Of a DNA stretch of 14,634 nucleotides, positions 31 to 14,634 are shown piece after piece; position 1 is the stretch's first letter; every line of letters begins with the position of its first letter. A model generated the notes under the pieces. It did no database searches, was not told where the DNA came from, and saw only the letters and a program-made list of their open reading frames with translations. Where the stretch lies: NCBI GenBank assembly GCA_025936205.1, contig JAICTU010000214.1, positions 1-14,634 on the forward strand, read 5' to 3'. The stretch is from Polyangiaceae bacterium. GTDB taxonomy: Bacteria; Myxococcota; Polyangia; Polyangiales; Polyangiaceae. The position numbers and the translations under genes are program-made.

Positions 31-1299
31 TCAGCGCTCGAGCAGCATATACCGCGCGCGCAGAGTGTGCACGACCGGGCTCACCCGCTGCTCGCGATCC
101 ATTGCCGCGAGCGCTTCGTTCAGATCATTGGAAAATGACGTCGGGACCAGACCGGATTGTGCGAGGACCAGGCGGCCCGAGCGCCACAGGGCTTGCTTCT
201 TCGCTTGCCCAGCATCCTCGACGCGCACGTCGAGCCGGGCCGGGATCGAGGTCTTGGAGCGACCGACCGCGGCTTGCCCCTCGAGCGACCCGATGGACTC
301 GAGCAGACGACGTGCGCCGGCCTCGTTCTTGGCGCCCAGCGGCAACGGAAACGTGTTGCAAGCGAATACAAACACCGCCTCCGTTCCAGGGAAGGCCGCC
401 TCGCGATACCGCGCCTCGATCTCCGGCCCTTCGAAGAGCGTTCGGGCCCAGTCGCCCATCACCGTCATGGCAGCCCGCCCATCGAATACCATTCGAGCGG
501 CCTCGTCCCAGCGCAGGTTCTCGCGGTCGGCGTTGGCATAGTGGAGCAAGCGCAGCGCCGTGGCCAACGTTTGTTGCAGCCGTGGATCGTCCGGCTTCAG
601 GCGGCCTTCAAAGTAGCTTTCGTAGAACTCGGGCCCGTGCTGCGCGATGAGGAGCGACTCGATGATGATGAGGCACAGGGTCCATGGGTCCTTGCTGCCC
701 ACTGCGAGCAGCGGGATTCCACGGCGCGCGAGCGCCTCGCCGAGCACGAACAAATCCTCGACCCGCTCGGGCGGCAGAGCACCGACCTCGCGCAACACGG
801 CGGGGTTGAAAAACACGGTATTCAGGCGATGCACGTTCGCCGGCACCGCATAGACGTGACCGTTATGACTGATCGCGTTGCGCAGCGCATCGGGCCAGGT
901 GGCGTTCCACTCCGCCACGCCCGGCAGGTCGTCGAGCGGGCGGAGGCGCGACTCGCGCGCATCGATTTGGTTGACGAGCACCCACTGCATCAGATCAGCG
1001 CCAGCGTTTGCTTGAAAGGAATCCGGCGGGTCGCCCTCCATCAGCCGCTTGCGCAAGACTCTGCGCGCGGTGTCAGAGAGCTGGGCATTGGCATGGATGA
1101 TACTGTCCTGCGGATACCGTTTTTCATGTTCCGCGACCAGCGAGTCCTGCAGACCTCCCCAGCTGAAGACCTCGACCGGAGCGCGCTCGGGGAGCGACGC
1201 CGTCGATGTTCTCGATCCGGCGTCACAACCCAGCGTCCCGGCGCTCAGAGGCGCTTGCATCAGCGCGAGAATGCCCAGCGCGCGGAGCCACGTCTTCAT
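31..1299 (-). CDS. Sugar ABC-type extracellular solute-binding lipoprotein (family 1, GtsA-like)
   Basis: A 422-residue periplasmic or membrane-anchored sugar-binding protein. The start at 1299 is chosen because its ATG overlaps the kinase stop codon (ATGA at 1296-1299); a reading frame 20 codons longer would run into the kinase. Residues 1-24 form a basic and hydrophobic signal peptide ending in TLGC, so Cys25 is a plausible lipidated cysteine, although the lipobox (Thr at -3, Leu at -2) is imperfect. The mature part has family 1 binding-protein features: the early VEVFSWGG strand, a GDPPDSFQ segment, an YAVPANVHR segment, an MGDWAR segment, FPGTE, and SIPARLD near the end. These match the order in Pseudomonas GtsA-type glucose-binding proteins, as I recall them. 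No permease follows in the window on this strand; instead the gene is coupled to the kinase. Inference: it presents sugar to, or senses sugar for, the kinase, or it feeds the divergent importer. Family call is firm; ligand and role are not. Confidence 0.88.
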   Translation of the reverse strand: MKTWLRALGILALMQAPLSAGTLGCDAGSRTSTASLPERAPVEVFSWGGLQDSLVAEHEKRYPQDSIIHANAQLSDTARRVLRKRLMEGDPPDSFQANAGADLMQWVLVNQIDARESRLRPLDDLPGVAEWNATWPDALRNAISHNGHVYAVPANVHRLNTVFFNPAVLREVGALPPERVEDLFVLGEALARRGIPLLAVGSKDPWTLCLIIIESLLIAQHGPEFYESYFEGRLKPDDPRLQQTLATALRLLHYANADRENLRWDEAARMVFDGRAAMTVMGDWARTLFEGPEIEARYREAAFPGTEAVFVFACNTFPLPLGAKNEAGARRLLESIGSLEGQAAVGRSKTSIPARLDVRVEDAGQAKKQALWRSGRLVLAQSGLVPTSFSNDLNEALAAMDREQRVSPVVHTLRARYMLLER

Positions 1300-2978
1300 G
1301 GGACGCACCGCCCGCCCTGGCAGCGCTCTTCGGCGCAGGCATTTCCGCACGATCCACAATGGCGCGCGTCGCTGTCGGTCGAGGTTTCACAGCCGTCATC
1401 CGTGCTGCCGTTGCAGTCCTCGTAGCCCGGATCGCAGCGGTAAATACGGCACGTGTCGCCACAGCCCACCTGTGCATGCGGCAGCGAGAGGCAGGCCGCC
1501 CCGCAGGAGCCACAGTGCTTGGGGTCCGTTCGAAGGGACGTTTCGCACCCGTTTTCCGCGATGCCGTCGCAATCATCATACCCGCGGTAACATACCGCGA
1601 TCTCGCAACTGCCGTCAGGACCGCAGCGCGGCGTCGCGTTGGTGCGCAGGCACGGCGCACACGAACTCGAGCTGCAGCCGTGCTCCGGCCGGTCACTGGA
1701 CACGCACTGACCTGCGCAGCTCTTGAAGCCAGGCTCGCATTGGCCCTGCGGTAATGCGCTCGCGGATCGCTCCGTTTGATGTCGGGCGATGGCCCGTGCG
1801 CCCAGCAGGGCAAAGAACGCCGTCATTGCGAGCAACAGCGCGCCGATCGTAGCCAAGCGGGCCGGCGTCGCGAACCAGTAGGCGGAGGCCATCTGCAGCG
1901 TAGGGTCCGAATGCCAGGCGCCTCGCTTCGCAGACGGTGGCGCGGAGCTCGCGCAGCGAATACGATCCGCGATGCGGGCGCGCATCTCGTCGCGGCGCGC
2001 GCCGAAATTTTGCACCATGAACTTGCTGAGGGCCTCATCGAGGAACTCCCCCGATTGCGACTCCAGGCAGGCTTGCAGTGCTGCGCGGAACTCGGCAGCG
2101 GTCTGATACCGTTCATCGGCGCTGACCGCCAGAGCCTGTTCGCAGACTCGTTGCAGCCGTGGATCGACGTTCTCGTGCGGCAGTGGGGGGATATTTCCGC
2201 ACAGCAAGTCGCGCAGGACCCGTACGTCGTCAGCATCCGCCCAAAGTCGCTGCCCGGCGAGCGCCTCCCAGAGCATGACGCCCACGCTAAAAAGGTCTGA
2301 GCGCCGGTCGAGCGGGCCGCCCCCGACTTGCTCGGGCGCCATGTAGCGTAGCTTGCCCTTCAACACTCCCGTTCGGGTCGCGCCCTCGTCCGAGTCGGTG
2401 ATCTTCGCGATGCCGAAGTCGAGCACCTTGACCACACCGTCGTAACCGACGAACACGTTATGCGGCGACATGTCCCGGTGCACGAGCCCGAGCGGCCTCC
2501 CCTCGTAGTCGACCAGCTCGTGGGCGGCATCCAGGCCCTTCAGTACCTGGATCAAGACCACCAAATGAAGCGAGAGCGGCAGCGGGGCAGGTCCCCGGGT
2601 GAGCTCCAAAAGCGGCAGCCCCTCCAGGTACTCCATGACGATCGTCGGCGCGCCCCGATACTGCGTCGCCTCGTAGACCTGCACGACGTTCGGGTGAGAG
2701 ATGCTCGCCGAGATCCGCGCCTCCTCGAGGAGCAAATGCACCGAATCTGGATCGCCGAGCAGGTGCACGTGCAGGCGCTTGAGGACGACGAGCTTCGCGA
2801 AGGATTCCGGGCCCCGAGCGAGTGCGAGGGTCACCACCCCCATCCCACCATGGCCAATCGGAAGCAGTGATTGATAGGGCTCGCCGTCGCCTGATTCAGC
2901 CTCCGTCGCAGGCCCTGGGGTGGTCCAGCTTCGAGGACGCCGCCGTGGGGAAAGGCGCGATATCAGCTTCCTCCCCAT
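1296..2978 (-). CDS. Transmembrane Ser/Thr protein kinase with Cys-rich exported domain
   Basis: A 560-residue Hanks-type kinase. The start at 2978 is set by GGAGG seven bases upstream; the frame is open a further 195 codons but that stretch crosses the divergent permease gene and has no kinase features. Residues 35-300 are the kinase domain: Gly loop GHGGMG (42-47), Lys67, helix C Glu86, HRD 167-169 with Asn174, DFG 187-189 and APE 214-216, so it should be catalytically active. One membrane span lies at about 374-395. The exported C-terminal part (414-560) contains 24 cysteines and two matched units at 463-496 and 515-548, each of the pattern C..GY.DC.G...GCET......HCGSCG.AC. Such repeats are frequent in myxobacterial surface proteins; the even cysteine number fits disulphide bonding. 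The stop codon overlaps the start of the binding-protein gene, so the two are translationally coupled. Inference: a sensor kinase whose outside domain may read the ligand state of the coupled binding protein. Confidence 0.93.
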   Translation of the reverse strand: MGRKLISRLSPRRRPRSWTTPGPATEAESGDGEPYQSLLPIGHGGMGVVTLALARGPESFAKLVVLKRLHVHLLGDPDSVHLLLEEARISASISHPNVVQVYEATQYRGAPTIVMEYLEGLPLLELTRGPAPLPLSLHLVVLIQVLKGLDAAHELVDYEGRPLGLVHRDMSPHNVFVGYDGVVKVLDFGIAKITDSDEGATRTGVLKGKLRYMAPEQVGGGPLDRRSDLFSVGVMLWEALAGQRLWADADDVRVLRDLLCGNIPPLPHENVDPRLQRVCEQALAVSADERYQTAAEFRAALQACLESQSGEFLDEALSKFMVQNFGARRDEMRARIADRIRCASSAPPSAKRGAWHSDPTLQMASAYWFATPARLATIGALLLAMTAFFALLGARAIARHQTERSASALPQGQCEPGFKSCAGQCVSSDRPEHGCSSSSCAPCLRTNATPRCGPDGSCEIAVCYRGYDDCDGIAENGCETSLRTDPKHCGSCGAACLSLPHAQVGCGDTCRIYRCDPGYEDCNGSTDDGCETSTDSDARHCGSCGNACAEERCQGGRCVP

Positions 2979-2985
2979 AGACGCG

Positions 2986-2990
2986 CCTCC
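2986..2990 (-). promoter_or_regulatory. Ribosome binding site deciding the kinase start
   Basis: Read on the minus strand this is GGAGG, separated by seven bases from the ATG at 2978. It is the only good Shine-Dalgarno match near a possible start in the long open frame and therefore fixes the N-terminus of the kinase. Confidence 0.7.
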
Positions 2991-3090
2991 GCATGAGACG
3001 GCAGTGCAGCTCCGCTTGTTAACGAGCCTGCTCGCATCCGGACGGGGCTTTCCGGGCTGCTGCCCGTGCCGGAATGCGGGTATTCCTGGA

Positions 3091-3117
3091 GGGCTCGGTG
3101 CCGAGCGGACCGAGCCC
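3091..3117. promoter_or_regulatory. Inverted repeat in the kinase/importer divergent gap (candidate operator)
   Basis: Perfect 9-bp arms GGGCTCGGT (3091-3099) and ACCGAGCCC (3109-3117) flank a 9-base spacer. A second, smaller palindrome, GCTCGG-TG-CCGAGC (3093-3106), is nested in it, so the element has three overlapping CTCGG/CCGAG half-sites. It sits 113 bp from the kinase start and 130 bp from the first permease start, in a 268-bp gap that must contain both promoters. There is no T-run on either side, so a terminator is unlikely. Nearby lesser symmetries are GGAAT-6-ATTCC (3071-3086) and the near-palindrome CTTGTTAACGAG (3017-3028). The regulator is not in the window. I saw no convincing -35/-10 pair for either direction. 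Confidence 0.45.
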
Positions 3118-3246
3118 AACCCCAGGACTGCCCGCTGGGACACTCGTTCGACGGGAGGCCGAAGCATTCGCTGCCACCAGAAAATTCGCCGCGCTCGCCG
3201 AGGAACCTGGCCGTTGGCATCGCGGCTGAGTTTGGTAGGACGAACC

Positions 3247-4140
3247 ATGGCGTTCCGACGGACGAAGCTGGCCCCACTCGTGGCGCTCACGCCCGCAGTG
3301 TTGATCACCGCCGTCGCGTTTCTCGGTGCGATCGTCTGGACGGTATACCTGTCCTTTACCGACTCGCGGATCTTTCCAAAGTACGCGCTCGCCGCGAATT
3401 GGTCCCGCCAGTACGAGAGGTTGCTGTACGACAAGGCGTGGGCGGGCGCGCTCGGGAATGTGCTCACCCTGTCCGCCGGTGGCGCTCTCGCGATCGCGTT
3501 CGGCTTCGTGGTGGCCGCGCTGGTGGAACGGGAATCGCGCAGGGAGAGCTGGTTTCGAACCATCTTCCTCTATCCTCTGGCGCTGTCCTTCATCGTCACG
3601 GGCATCGTCTGGCGCTGGATGTTCAATCCGGATCTCGGGGCGGAGCGCCTGCTGCGCCAGTGGGGGTTTGCCCATGCCACGTTCAACTGGCTCGCGGATC
3701 CGCGCACGGCGATGTACGGCATCATCCTGGCTTCCATCTGGCACAGCGTGGGGTTCTACATCGCGCTCCTGCTGGCGGGCTTGAAGTCCATCGACAAGGA
3801 GCTGTGGCACGTGGCCCGGATCGACGGTGTGGGCGTCTGGCGGCTGTACGTGGAGGTCATCATCCCGATGCTCCGCTGGACGTTCCTGACGTGTGGGATC
3901 TTGCTGTCGCTCGGCGTGGTCAAGGCCTACGACATCGTCGTCGCCATGACCAATGGGGGCCCCGGCACCGCGACCTGGACGCCGGCTTACTTCGTGCTCA
4001 ACGCCTACGCGACCCGCGGCAACGTGGGCTACGCGTGCGCCGCGGCGGTGGTCATGCTGGGCATGACGGCGGTCGTTTTCTTGCCGCTGGTGCTGACCAC
4101 CACGTGGCAGCTGAAACGAAACACGGCGAGGAAGGCATGA
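3247..4140 (+). CDS. Carbohydrate ABC transporter permease 1 (MalF/UgpA family, GtsB-like)
   Basis: A 297-residue inner-membrane subunit of a CUT1-type sugar importer. The start at 3247 follows AGGA with six bases spacing; the frame is open upstream, but the first membrane helix begins directly after this Met and the upstream codons fall in the divergent promoter gap. Hydrophobic helices can be seen at about 10-36, 70-93, 104-125, 155-179, 208-232 and 260-286. The EAA loop that contacts the ATPase is at about 185-207 (HVARIDGVGVWRLY...IIP), with the usual Asp193-Gly194 and Pro207. Segments such as RTIFLYPLALSFIVTG and MTNGGPG closely follow GtsB of Pseudomonas as I recall it. The stop codon overlaps the start of the next permease gene (ATGA), indicating an operon and a heteromeric channel. 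Confidence 0.92.
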   Translation: MAFRRTKLAPLVALTPAVLITAVAFLGAIVWTVYLSFTDSRIFPKYALAANWSRQYERLLYDKAWAGALGNVLTLSAGGALAIAFGFVVAALVERESRRESWFRTIFLYPLALSFIVTGIVWRWMFNPDLGAERLLRQWGFAHATFNWLADPRTAMYGIILASIWHSVGFYIALLLAGLKSIDKELWHVARIDGVGVWRLYVEVIIPMLRWTFLTCGILLSLGVVKAYDIVVAMTNGGPGTATWTPAYFVLNAYATRGNVGYACAAAVVMLGMTAVVFLPLVLTTTWQLKRNTARKA

Positions 4141-8031: not shown

Positions 8032-8367
8032 TCATGGCTCGTTCGGAACTCGCGGCGGGCGTGGGTACAGGCTCGGAGGGAAGCGACTTTCGATGCCGCC
8101 AGACTGGTATTCCAGGAAGTAGAGCAGCGCCCAGATCATTTCCCGCGAGAGGACGGGGCCCCAGCTGGGCATGCGCGCGCGGCCGTTCTTTGTCGGCGGG
8201 CCGCCGTGTTCGACGACCTCGAACATGTGCTCGTAGCGGCGGCGGTTGCCGAAGAAGAGTCCTTCGCCTTGGCCCCACTCGGCGCCCGGCGGCGGCATCG
8301 CCGCTGCATCCTCGAGCGTGCGGCGGCCGCCGTGACACTCGTTGCAGAGCACCGTCCACACCGACAC
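8032..8367 (-). CDS. c-type cytochrome domain protein, probably N-terminally truncated
   Basis: A 111-residue mono-heme cytochrome c domain if started at the GTG at 8365-8367. The heme site is CNECH (residues 8-12; DNA 8332-8346), followed by MPPPGAEWGQGEG and then RMPSWGPVLSREMIWALLYFLEY, where Met66 is the expected distal ligand and the final helix is characteristic of class I cytochromes. A working c-type cytochrome must be exported, yet no signal peptide or Met start precedes the heme site; the frame stays open upstream without a start codon of quality and enters sequence that on the plus strand encodes a peroxidase fragment. So the 5' end seems lost, or the real start lies in a rearranged segment. 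It may be a remnant. Domain identity is firm; integrity is doubtful. Confidence 0.65.
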   Translation of the reverse strand: MSVWTVLCNECHGGRRTLEDAAAMPPPGAEWGQGEGLFFGNRRRYEHMFEVVEHGGPPTKNGRARMPSWGPVLSREMIWALLYFLEYQSGGIESRFPPSLYPRPPRVPNEP

Positions 8368-8394
8368 GGCCTCGAGCGAGGTCTGGGCGTCCCA

Positions 8395-9167
8395 GAAAAG
8401 GACCAGTACGAAGCGATCTTCGGTGCGCTCGACCCCGGGCTGGCCCCGGCAGCGCCGGACGCGGATCGATTCCCACCGAGCGGGAGCTGATGAGCGCCGA
8501 CGATCGGCAGGTGGTCAACCAGATCATGGCCAACATCGGCAAATCCTTCGAGGCCTACGAGCGCAACCTGGTCAGCGGCAGCTCGCCCTTCTCGCGCTAC
8601 CTGCAAGCTCAGGACACCAGGGACTTCTCGCCCGCGGCGCGCCGAGGTCTCGCCTTGTTCATCGGCAAGGCAGCGTGCAATGAATGCCACCGTGGCCCCA
8701 CGCTGAGCGACAACAAATTTCACAACGTGGGCGTGCTGCAGGCGGCCGACGAGCACACACCGCTCGTGGACGAGGGCCGCTTCGAAGACATCCCGTCGCT
8801 GCTGCGCAGCCAATGGAACTCCGCCGGCAAGTACAGCGCCGATCCGGCCGCCGGCGAGGCCAAGCTCGCCGGGCTCGATGCGGCCGACGAGCGCCCGAAA
8901 GGCCAGTTCCGCACCGCCAGCCTGCTCAACGTGGCGAAGCCGGCGCCCTACTTCCACAATGGCAGCGCCGCCACGCTCGACGACGTGCTCTGGCACTACA
9001 AGATGGGCGGCGACGATCCCGGCAGCTACTCCGGCACGCTCGACCCTAAGGCGCGGCAGCTGAATCTGAATGAGACAGAGGTGACCGATCTGATCGCGTT
9101 CCTGAACAGCCTCACGGGTGAGCCGGTGGCCGAGCAGTGGCGAGAAGGTGCTACGTTCTCGCGTTAA
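8395..9167 (+). pseudogene. Di-heme cytochrome c peroxidase (MauG/CcpA family), 5'-truncated and frameshifted
   Basis: Peroxidase-like sequence starts at about 8395 in one frame (EKDQYEAIFGALDP...DADRFPPSG), which hits a stop at 8488-8490, and continues in another frame from about 8470 (ELMSADDRQVVNQIMANIGKS). The second frame then gives the normal C-terminal half: FEAYERNLVSGSSPF, the heme site CNECH (8676-8690), DNKFHNVGV, FRTASLLNVAKPAPYFHNG, TLDDVLWHYKMGG, and LIAFLNSLTGEP at the end. In this family the N-terminal half carries the signal peptide, the other heme site and an FWDGR segment; none is found upstream in any plus frame. An ATG at 8490 with GGGAG close upstream could still give a 225-residue product, but without export signal or first heme. 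I therefore call it a decayed gene. A single sequencing error could explain the frameshift but not the missing half. Confidence 0.75.
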
Positions 9168-11288: not shown

Positions 11289-11987
11289 ATGGACACCGTC
11301 TTCAGCGCTGGGAGCCCGATGCAAGGCAGTCTGGACGAGACCTCGCCGCTACCGTTCGAGTTCGAGATCCTCGCCGGCCGCAAGCGCGTCCTGCGTCGCG
11401 AGGGCCAGCGCCAGGACGAGACGGCGCCCTTTCCGTTCGAGTTCGAGGTGGTCGCTCGCAGGTCGCGCCAGAGCCAGGACGAGACGTCACCGTTCTTGCT
11501 GGAGTTCGGGGTCGTCCTGCCGAATGGCACGGAGGGATTCGTGCGCACGGCCCGCCCGCCCCGCAGCACCCCGCGTAGGTCTCTCGGCGGGCTGCCCCGC
11601 CTGAAATGGCACGGCGTCGACGCCTCCATCGAGCTGCGGAGATACGCGGCCCGCATCGCAGCAGGCGAATCGCTGCCAGCGTATCGCGGTCCGATCCTCG
11701 CCAACGGTCAGCTGCCGCAGGTCCGCGCCTCAGCGCCGCAGTCGCCCCGCAGCGCGCCGGACGCGCTCAGCACGGCGACAGACGAATCGAAGGGGCTCCC
11801 GAGGCTCGCGCTCACCCTGCTGGTGATGTCGGCGCTGGTCGTCGCATCGCTGGTCCTCGGGGATGACGCGCAGCTGCGCCAGCTCGGGCAGTCCATCAGC
11901 GGCTGGTTTACGGGCAAAGACAACTCAGCAGAGACCCTGCGCGCGATCGAGCCAGCCCCGCCCGCGGCGCCTGCTGCGCAGCGCTAG
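11289..11987 (+). CDS. Hypothetical single-span membrane protein with three DET-P-FEFE repeats
   Basis: Function not recognised. The protein has 232 residues from the ATG at 11289; an alternative ATG at 11319 has GGGAG four bases upstream and keeps all repeats. The N-terminal third carries three copies of one motif: DETSPLPFEFEIL (16-28), DETAPFPFEFEVV (43-55) and DETSPFLLEFGVV (64-76), separated by basic Arg/Gln-rich links. A central stretch (about 98-140) has the mixed character of a small folded or amphipathic segment (RLKWHGVDASIELRRYAARIAAG). One hydrophobic span lies at about 173-191, then a short tail ending in Pro/Ala. There is no signal peptide; Arg172 before and Asp192-Asp193 after the span predict N-terminus inside. 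The repeats would thus face the cytoplasm and could be docking motifs for a partner. Codon bias is like that of neighbours, supporting a real gene. Confidence 0.68.
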   Translation: MDTVFSAGSPMQGSLDETSPLPFEFEILAGRKRVLRREGQRQDETAPFPFEFEVVARRSRQSQDETSPFLLEFGVVLPNGTEGFVRTARPPRSTPRRSLGGLPRLKWHGVDASIELRRYAARIAAGESLPAYRGPILANGQLPQVRASAPQSPRSAPDALSTATDESKGLPRLALTLLVMSALVVASLVLGDDAQLRQLGQSISGWFTGKDNSAETLRAIEPAPPAAPAAQR

Positions 11988-12024: not shown

Positions 12025-12054
12025 TGGGCTCGGAGCCGTACAGTGCCGAGCCCA
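12025..12054. repeat. Inverted repeat between the repeat protein and the hydrolase genes
   Basis: TGGGCTCGG (12025-12033) and CCGAGCCCA (12046-12054) form perfect 9-bp arms with a 12-base spacer, starting 37 bases after the stop at 11987. It may act as a terminator hairpin, although no T-run follows, or as a protein site upstream of the hydrolase. Its 8-bp core arms GGGCTCGG/CCGAGCCC are the same as in the element at 3091-3117. Confidence 0.5.
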
Positions 12055-12111
12055 CTAGCATGTGCCAACCGCTCGGCGCCGTGCGAGCCTGCTAGGCTCA
12101 ACTGGGCGAGC

Positions 12112-13068
12112 ATGGCAGGGCAGCAGTCTTCCTCGGGGCGATTTCGGTTCGTCAATCTGGACGGCTCGGAGCCGCAGACGTTCGGGGCAGTTTTCAAGTG
12201 GGCAGTGGTCGATCGTTTGCTCGGCAGGCGCACGCGAGGCTCGGTGGCCTCGCCCGCGCCGCGGGTCGAGCCCAATCTCGCTGAGCTGCAACGCCCGCCC
12301 GCACCAGGCGAGCCGGCGCGCCTGACGTGGATCGGCCACGCCAGTTGGTTGGTTCAGCTCGACGGAGTTTCGCTGCTCATCGATCCGATCCTGTTCGACA
12401 GCATCGGCCCCGGCATCCGGCGCTTTGTGCCGCCGGGGGTCCCGCTCGCGGCGTTGCCGGCGATCGACGCCACCCTGATCACACACAACCACCGCGATCA
12501 CCTGGACTTGTCGTCGGTCAAAGCCATCGGGCGACCGCTCGTGGCGGGTCTCGGACTCCAGGCGTTCTTCGCGCGCGAGAAGCTATCCTGCACCGAGCTC
12601 GGCTGGTGGAGCGAAACCCGCGTCGGCGAAGTCACGATCCGCTTCGTGCCCTCACAGCACTGGAGCCGTCGCGGCCTCAGCGACATGAACGAGACCTTGT
12701 GGGGAGGCTTCGTGATCGAGGGCTCCCGTGCGCGCATCTACCATTCGGGCGACACTGCCTACTTCGACGGCTTCAGCGAAATCGGGCGCCGCGCGGGCGC
12801 CATCGACGCAGCGATCTTGCCCATCGGCGCGTACGACCCGGCCTGGTTCATGAGCAAACAACACCTGAATCCCGAGCAGGCCGTGCGCGCCTTCCTGGAT
12901 CTGGGCGCGCGCCACTTCATCGCCATGCACTGGGGCACCTTCCAGCTCACCGACGAAGCGCTCGACGAACCTCCGCTGCGCCTGAAGGCGGAGTGGCAAC
13001 GAAGAGGGCTGGATCCAGGTGTTTGCCACGTACCTCCGGTGGGGGGCACGCTGCGGATGGCACGCTGA
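12112..13068 (+). CDS. Metallo-beta-lactamase-fold hydrolase, NAPE-PLD-like
   Basis: A 318-residue probable cytoplasmic metal-dependent hydrolase. The ATG at 12112 is preferred to a GTG at 12043, which would lie in the inverted repeat; the ribosome site is weak (GGGCGAG). The metal site reads H125-N-H127-R-D129-H130 (THNHRDHLD), then His183 (SQHWSRRG), Asp214 (HSGDTAYFDGF) and His273 (MHWGTFQ). PSQHWSRRG, SGDTAYF and HLNPEQA together are the signature of the N-acyl-phosphatidylethanolamine phospholipase D-like and UlaG-like branch. Bacterial members are widespread and their substrates are mostly unproven, so lipid phosphodiesterase activity is only one possibility. No signal peptide or membrane span is seen. 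It stands alone: 124 bases from the gene before and 314 from the one after. Confidence 0.9.
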   Translation: MAGQQSSSGRFRFVNLDGSEPQTFGAVFKWAVVDRLLGRRTRGSVASPAPRVEPNLAELQRPPAPGEPARLTWIGHASWLVQLDGVSLLIDPILFDSIGPGIRRFVPPGVPLAALPAIDATLITHNHRDHLDLSSVKAIGRPLVAGLGLQAFFAREKLSCTELGWWSETRVGEVTIRFVPSQHWSRRGLSDMNETLWGGFVIEGSRARIYHSGDTAYFDGFSEIGRRAGAIDAAILPIGAYDPAWFMSKQHLNPEQAVRAFLDLGARHFIAMHWGTFQLTDEALDEPPLRLKAEWQRRGLDPGVCHVPPVGGTLRMAR

Positions 13069-13382
13069 TCCAGCACAGGGTGCAAACGTCGCAAGAGGCT
13101 CCCAGCGTTGACTTGGATGCGCCGAGTGCCCGGAAACGCCCACCAGAATGGGATGTCGCGCCCTCCGGCGAGTCGGGCGACGGCCAATTCCGTCGTCATT
13201 CACGGCACTTACCCGTCCGCGCGCCGAACATGGGGCGCCTCTGCGGCCGTGCTATGAATGAAGCTGCGAACTCGCGGTGAAGGGCCGTTTCGACTCAACC
13301 CTTCAGCGCGCCGGCCGATTCCCCGTCGGAGGCTGCATCCGCCGCGCCGCGGCTCGGATTTTCCCCCTTCCACTGCTCCGTC
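13069..13382. other. Intergenic region upstream of jetA
   Basis: No gene is supported. An extended -10-like motif TG-C-TATGAA lies at 13250-13258, about 125 bases before the jetA ATG, without a good -35. A TTGACT at 13108-13113 has no matching -10. No terminator-like hairpin with T-run was seen after the hydrolase gene. This is the natural place for the boundary of a defence island. Confidence 0.4.
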
Positions 13383-14634
13383 ATGACTCCACTGCGTGCC
13401 GTCGCCGCCCTGCGCGAGCTGCGCGGGCAGCCGCTGTGGCGCTTGCTCGCTGCAGACAAGAGCGTGCTGACGATCGCGTTGTTGCAGCAGGTGCTGCTCA
13501 CGAACGAGAAGGTGCTGCCCGCGTCGATCCTCTACGAGCGGCTCAGTCGAGCGATCGATGAGCTGCGCGGCGCGGGTGAAGATGTGCCGCAATCTGCTCG
13601 AGCGTATGCGAGCGATTGGCTGAATCAGGGCTGGCTGGTGCGGCGCCTGGCGCCCGGCGAGCATGAGGAAGACTATGAGCTGAGCACGGAGGCGACCGCA
13701 GCGGTGCGCTTCGTGACGAGCCTGCTCCAGCGCCGCACGCTGGCAACCGAAAGCCGTCTGGCGCTGGTGCAGCAGCTGGTGCTCGACCTGGCGGAGAAGA
13801 CCGACGGCAATCCCGAGACGCGTGTGGATGCGCTGCTCGCCGAGCGCGACCGCATCGATCGCGAGATCGAGGGCGTGCGCGGCGGGCTGGTGCTGGCGCT
13901 GCCCGAAGATCGCTCGCTCGAGCGAGCGCGTGAGATCATCGGGTTGACGGATGAGCTCGCGGCCGACTTTCGCCGGGTGCGCGATGATTTTGATCAGCTC
14001 AATCGGGGACTGCGGCAGAGCCTGGTGGAGCACGAGGGCAGCCGCGGCGAGGTGCTGGAGGCGCTGTTCGCGGGCGTGGACGTGATCGGGCAGAGCGAGG
14101 CGGGGCGCACGTTCGCGGCCTTCTGGCGCCTGCTGACGGATCCCGAGCAGTCGACGGCGCTGCGCGAGGCGCTCGACGTGCTGGTACGACGCCCCTTCGC
14201 CAGACGGCTGGAAGCGCGGGAGCGAAAGTTCTTGCTGAATCTGACGCACCTGCTCGGTGAGGAAGGGAGCAGCGTGCACGACGTGCTGCAGAACTTCGCG
14301 CGCAGCCTGAAGAGCTTCGTGCAGAGTCGGGAGTTTCTGGAGCAGCGCCGGCTGCACTCGCTCTTGAAGCGGGCGACGCAGGCGGCGATCGCGGCGCGCG
14401 ACGCGCTGCGCCCGACGGAAGACATCGGCTACGAGCTGACGCTGACGAGCAGCCGCATTCGCTCCGTGGCGCAGTGGTCTCTGTATGATCCGGCGCAGCG
14501 CATGGCGGACGGCTCGATGCGCGAGGCCGAGGTGTCGACCATCGATCTGGAGTGGGTGGGCGAGCTGGTGCGGCAGTCGGAGATCGACTTTCGGACGCTG
14601 CGGCGGCACGTGCACGAGCTGCTCGGGGAGCAGC
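13383..14634 (+). CDS. jetA: JetA (DUF3375), kleisin-like subunit of a Wadjet anti-plasmid system, 3' end outside window
   Basis: Open from the ATG at 13383 to the window edge (417 complete codons, no stop). DUF3375 proteins are usually about 480-500 residues, so roughly the last 60-80 are missing. Family features are the start LRGQPLWRLLAADKSVLTIALLQQVLL (about 13-39, given here only for position), DWLNQGWLVRRL (78-89), YELSTEA (98-104), then TESRLALVQQLVLDL (122-136), NPETRVDALLAERDRIDREI (143-162), a long helical stretch DFRRVRDDFDQLNRGLRQSL (195-214), GRTFAAFWRLL (241-251) and FARSLKSFV...FLEQRRL (305-324). JetA is the MukF/MksF-like kleisin that joins an SMC ATPase (JetC), a MukE-like protein (JetB, DUF4194) and a topoisomerase-VI-like nuclease (JetD) to cleave small circular plasmids. 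It is typically the first gene of the operon, which fits the 314-bp gap before it. No clear ribosome site precedes the ATG. Confidence 0.88.
   Translation, partial: MTPLRAVAALRELRGQPLWRLLAADKSVLTIALLQQVLLTNEKVLPASILYERLSRAIDELRGAGEDVPQSARAYASDWLNQGWLVRRLAPGEHEEDYELSTEATAAVRFVTSLLQRRTLATESRLALVQQLVLDLAEKTDGNPETRVDALLAERDRIDREIEGVRGGLVLALPEDRSLERAREIIGLTDELAADFRRVRDDFDQLNRGLRQSLVEHEGSRGEVLEALFAGVDVIGQSEAGRTFAAFWRLLTDPEQSTALREALDVLVRRPFARRLEARERKFLLNLTHLLGEEGSSVHDVLQNFARSLKSFVQSREFLEQRRLHSLLKRATQAAIAARDALRPTEDIGYELTLTSSRIRSVAQWSLYDPAQRMADGSMREAEVSTIDLEWVGELVRQSEIDFRTLRRHVHELLGEQ

Follow-up and report, generated by a model that had tools for sequence, protein, structure and literature searches.

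The question raised by this locus is whether a reading frame that runs off the right-hand end of a stretch of bacterial DNA opens a type I Wadjet (JetABCD) operon, and whether such an operon would include the nuclease gene jetD. The DNA analyzed here, called the window throughout, is a stretch of 14,634 nucleotides from a Polyangiaceae bacterium (contig JAICTU010000214.1 of assembly GCA_025936205.1). The window stops inside the gene in question, so any partner genes lie outside it, and the answer had to be sought in the visible part of the frame, in its left flank and in the loci of its relatives.

A JetA kleisin gene at the right end of the window

The frame occupies positions 13383..14633 on the plus strand, begins with an ATG codon and continues for 417 codons without a stop codon until the window ends. 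Judged by its homologues, these are the first 417 of about 487 codons, i.e., roughly 86% of the gene, with the last 70 or so lying beyond the window edge. The initial annotation had proposed that the frame follows DUF3375 along its visible length, and the profile search bore this out decisively: PF11855 (DUF3375) matched with an E-value of 7.7e-123 and 411 bits against a cut-off of 28.6, the alignment covers residues 11-416 of 417 and profile positions 1-409 of 474, and no other Pfam family was found at E<=0.001. The best PADLOC model is JetA1 (PDLC00460, E 2.9e-157, 522 bits), and all 11 PADLOC matches of the frame are JetA1 models. Among 7999 protein candidates scored, at least 1693 are homologous at E<=1e-20, the nearest being a complete protein of 487 aa (P0001) that is 94% identical across the whole query; a further homologue, P0002, is 88% identical. 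The longest contig behind P0001 has 11,891 bases, and that behind P0002 has 32,276. Among the nearest JetA proteins, one carries the label Polyangiaceae (83% identity) and another Deltaproteobacteria (78%). The start codon is well placed, since M1 is invariant in an alignment of 19 sequences. The frame at 13383-14633 is thus the 5' part of a gene (jetA, also called mksF) for a JetA-family kleisin.

A long open frame also lies over the same bases on the opposite strand (13209..14615, minus strand), where 468 codons are open from a GTG. One alternative is that this is the real gene; a Pfam search of this frame returned no match at E<=0.01, and the plus-strand frame is the one with the homologues counted above (at least 1693 among 7999). 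The GC content at the three codon positions is 0.75/0.44/0.86 for the jetA frame and 0.84/0.47/0.73 for the antisense frame. The third position is the GC-richest in jetA and also in eight of nine other genes measured in the window, all but the methyltransferase; the antisense frame differs from its neighbors in this respect. We therefore take the antisense frame for a shadow, as had been suggested initially, and give its being a gene essentially no chance.

The structural comparisons point to the same family. A profile built from 19 sequences matched four different solved sequences (E 5e-36 to 2e-33), each of which is named JetA; the best stretch runs from position 12 or 14 to position 338 of 487. 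An AlphaFold2 model of the window JetA reached a mean pLDDT of 63.5 and a pTM of 0.42, with residues 324-417 below 50; its first 100 residues form helices and short strands, which we read as a winged-helix part, and long helices follow. When this model was compared to the PDB with Foldseek, eight matches were obtained at E<=0.001, these being ranks 1-8 and all JetABC entries from E. coli or P. aeruginosa, and four chains among them are ones named JetA in the profile search. MukBEF entries come next in the list, at E-values of 0.006 and above. The TM-scores are low (0.31-0.35 by query length), as might be anticipated when the model is of modest confidence and the kleisin long and flexible. The solved JetA proteins of E. 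coli and P. aeruginosa PA14 (8q72, 8as8, 9qxt, 8dk1) belong to the same family as the window JetA; they are only 22-26% identical to it in the Foldseek alignments, and the profile match ends at position 338 of 487.

To the left of jetA, the intergenic stretch 13069..13382 is the likely left border of the operon; no sigma-70-like promoter or terminator was found between positions 13000 and 13450. The gene before it, at 12043..13068 on the plus strand, encodes an MBL-fold hydrolase (Lactamase_B_2, PF12706, E 2.7e-40) that we place outside the system. The PADLOC search returned no match for this protein, and 156 of 195 genomes from the phylum of Citreicoccus inhibens (see below) contain relatives of it at E<=1e-20, the ten best being 62-67% identical. 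The other left-hand genes with Pfam matches above cut-off encode two solute-binding proteins, two permeases, a MalK-like ATPase, a Ser/Thr kinase, a carboxyl methyltransferase and a TetR regulator; a frame at 8034-9167 has cytochrome-like matches below the curated cut-off, and one at 11289-11987 has no Pfam family.

Of 12 in-frame left-hand proteins, ten had no PADLOC match. One of the other two is the MalK-like ATPase, which matched mad3 (7e-29), a match that we read as the generic ABC domain. The other is the Ser/Thr kinase (1296-3563, minus strand), which has a Cys-rich C-terminal part and matched the PD-T4-6 kinase models (E 2.8e-60); this probably reflects the generic kinase domain. Neither was retained as a defence gene.

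Gene order after jetA in relatives

Genome contigs were scanned for relatives of the locus; the best 80 of 98 confirmed stretches were kept and, together with one plasmid locus, gave 81 loci, which were searched with profiles grown from the window jetA and from jetB, jetC and jetD of one of them, L001. L001 belongs to Citreicoccus inhibens, the nearest named genome found. Its JetA is 66% identical to that of the window and a full-length match to the same PADLOC model (PDLC00460), and right after its jetA come genes matching JetB1 (E 3.4e-84), JetC1 (E 0) and JetD1 (E 2.2e-123). Its type I Wadjet is thus seen in the order jetA-B-C-D, whereas the window copy is known from jetA alone. Among the 195 genomes of the same phylum, a JetA match at E<=1e-20 was found in 26, and none beyond L001 is a close relative, the others being 30-34% identical. 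Three stretches of viral contigs matched a search pattern, none of which was confirmed as a relative. Of 72,556 plasmid records, ten match; in three the match covers 80% of the query or more, and in none does identity reach 60%.

The jetB match begins no more than 600 bases from the end of the jetA match in 79 of the 81 loci. Seven loci end too early for a gene-content call, which leaves 74 assessable loci. All four genes are present in 54 of these, contiguously in 52 and with a wider gap in two; jetABC without jetD is found in 19, all of which leave 1.5 kb or more of space for it; and one has a shortened jetC. The last (L010:6377-7015) has a jetC frame of only 212 codons, after which come oppositely oriented flagellin and FlgK genes, and is either a truncated Wadjet or an assembly error. 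It illustrates how the window jetA could be a broken or orphan remnant whose later genes were lost or interrupted. We regard this as highly improbable for the window, where the visible frame has no interruption and its product shares 94% identity with a complete homologue.

An IFDR motif at the JetB N-terminus is described as contacting JetD (PMC10586767). We looked for the literal motif at the beginning of JetB in 18 loci, some having jetD and some lacking it, and read as far as 30 residues into the matched domain; it occurs in none of them and was discarded as a marker separating the two kinds of locus.

Three further arrangements were observed. In a Peptococcaceae MAG (L015:3501-7703), jetB and jetC are separated by four genes, all on the same strand, through either insertion or assembly error; they encode a response regulator, a histidine kinase and two proteins of 325 aa that have no Pfam match. 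On a 59.8 kb plasmid of Sphaerotilus sulfidivorans (L107, NZ_CP035707.1), jetABCD has parAB-type genes and a gene for replication initiation as neighbors. Finally, an identical JetA is present in records from Dyella, Pseudomonas, Halieaceae, Burkholderiales and Stutzerimonas (L019-L023). When the DNA around jetA was compared with that of L019, L022 and L023 showed 95-98% identity over 21 kb, L021 showed 98% over 16 kb and L020 showed 91% over 8 kb. Upstream of the L019 jetA lie genes for BrxA, a BrxC-like protein and a WYL regulator; this is probably a recently spread BREX and Wadjet island.

JetABC without JetD in Stenotrophomonas and Dyella

The 19 loci without jetD (L042, L043, L045, L048, L050-L059, L061, L063, L064, L069 and L072) come from Stenotrophomonas and Dyella tabacisoli. 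When ten genomes carrying such loci were searched for JetD_C at E<=1e-5, none gave a match, as against three of three jetD-bearing genomes in the same search. The gene after the L042 jetC encodes a SEC-C/YchJ-like protein and not a nuclease of known family. In all 19 loci, jetA, jetB and jetC are open and of near-constant length, and JetC of the five loci inspected keeps what we take to be the Walker A, signature and Walker B-like motifs. The dN/dS of the three genes ranges from about 0 to 0.25 (15 pairwise comparisons covering six of the 19 loci, L042 and five others), so that in the six loci compared jetABC look maintained, apparently by purifying selection.

A Wadjet I without jetD has been described in S. 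maltophilia as conserved beside RecBCD and called probably inactive, and the same source gives four strains in which a complete Wadjet variant adjoins BREX I (PMC11680222). The selection signal on jetABC suggests instead that the complex is kept for some purpose, as a maintained MksBEF-like one. In the excerpts of the literature on Stenotrophomonas together with MksB, nothing was judged related. These loci are not set apart from the window by their profile matches: their JetA shares its best PADLOC model with the window JetA, and JetB and JetC of L042 share theirs with JetB and JetC of L001. They lack jetD and form a clade of the JetA tree separate from that of the window.

Such loci raise an alternative for the window itself, namely that its operon consists of jetABC alone and encodes an MksBEF-like condensin, which has lost its nuclease and organizes the chromosome rather than cutting plasmids. 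The 19 of 74 assessable relatives with this gene content, the contrast in JetD_C between their genomes and the jetD-bearing ones, and the low dN/dS all lend it weight, and P. aeruginosa MksBEF is given in a review as a likely example of a system that lost jetD (PMC10586767). We nevertheless consider it unlikely, on account of the placement of the window in the JetA tree.

Placement of the window and its predicted operon

The tree comprises 116 rows, with branch support given as SH-aLRT. The window groups with P0001 (support 98) within a 50-row clade (support 100), and jetD is present in all seven assessable loci of that clade. The rows without jetD (eight of the 19 loci were included) fall, together with Dyella silvatica, whose jetD status was not assessable, into a separate Stenotrophomonas/Dyella clade (support 99) outside that of the window. 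Since the clade of the window has jetD and the rows without it belong to another clade, jetD would be expected downstream of the window. Some features temper this expectation: one of the seven loci is the plasmid row L107, which sits on a long branch and has its jetA annotated as two overlapping pieces; the narrower clade of 33 rows that encloses the window (support 100) has gene context from L001 only; and the relatives closest to the window are represented by proteins only.

We thus consider it probable, at about 0.88, that the window frame opens a standard type I JetABCD operon continuing to the right. The matches to PF11855 and JetA1 over the whole visible length of an uninterrupted frame, the four genes of L001, the 54 of 74 loci with complete gene content, the seven of seven in the clade of the window and the eight Foldseek matches to JetABC entries all argue for this reading; the position of the window end, the 19 loci without jetD, the single shortened jetC and the modest structural model (pLDDT 63.5, TM-scores 0.31-0.35) weigh on the other side. 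The start of a Wadjet operon at the window edge, which the initial annotation had called probable, is supported by the PF11855 and JetA1 matches, and a complete operon with jetD is a strong inference from the relatives, as is the presence of jetB, jetC and jetD on this molecule.

The predicted order to the right would be jetA, jetB (KITE, DUF4194), jetC (SMC ATPase) and jetD (Toprim nuclease, PF09983/PF11795). By analogy with other type I systems (PMC10586767), the JetA kleisin and JetB would complete the JetC motor, and the JetA N-terminus would link a pair of motors, giving a dimer of dimers. Loop extrusion is the proposed way in which the complex reels in DNA; where the DNA is a small circle, the motors would collide, upon which JetD would cut. 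In the MksBEFG system of C. glutamicum, the nuclease MksG was found to be bound by the kleisin, MksF, which forms the link to it (PMC10123090).

The window copy is an ordinary member of the already known Wadjet type I. It adds one type I kleisin, 22-26% identical to the solved JetA proteins, from a myxobacterium-like lineage. Should its operon lack JetD, this would represent a further, independent conversion of Wadjet to MksBEF-like chromosome handling, in a myxobacterium-like host, which we hold to be very unlikely. Nevertheless, because the Stenotrophomonas/Dyella clade keeps JetABC without JetD, apparently under purifying selection, jetA alone is no proof of plasmid cutting. For annotation, a jetA match indicates an SMC complex, and the label of plasmid defence should be applied only once the nuclease has been seen as well.
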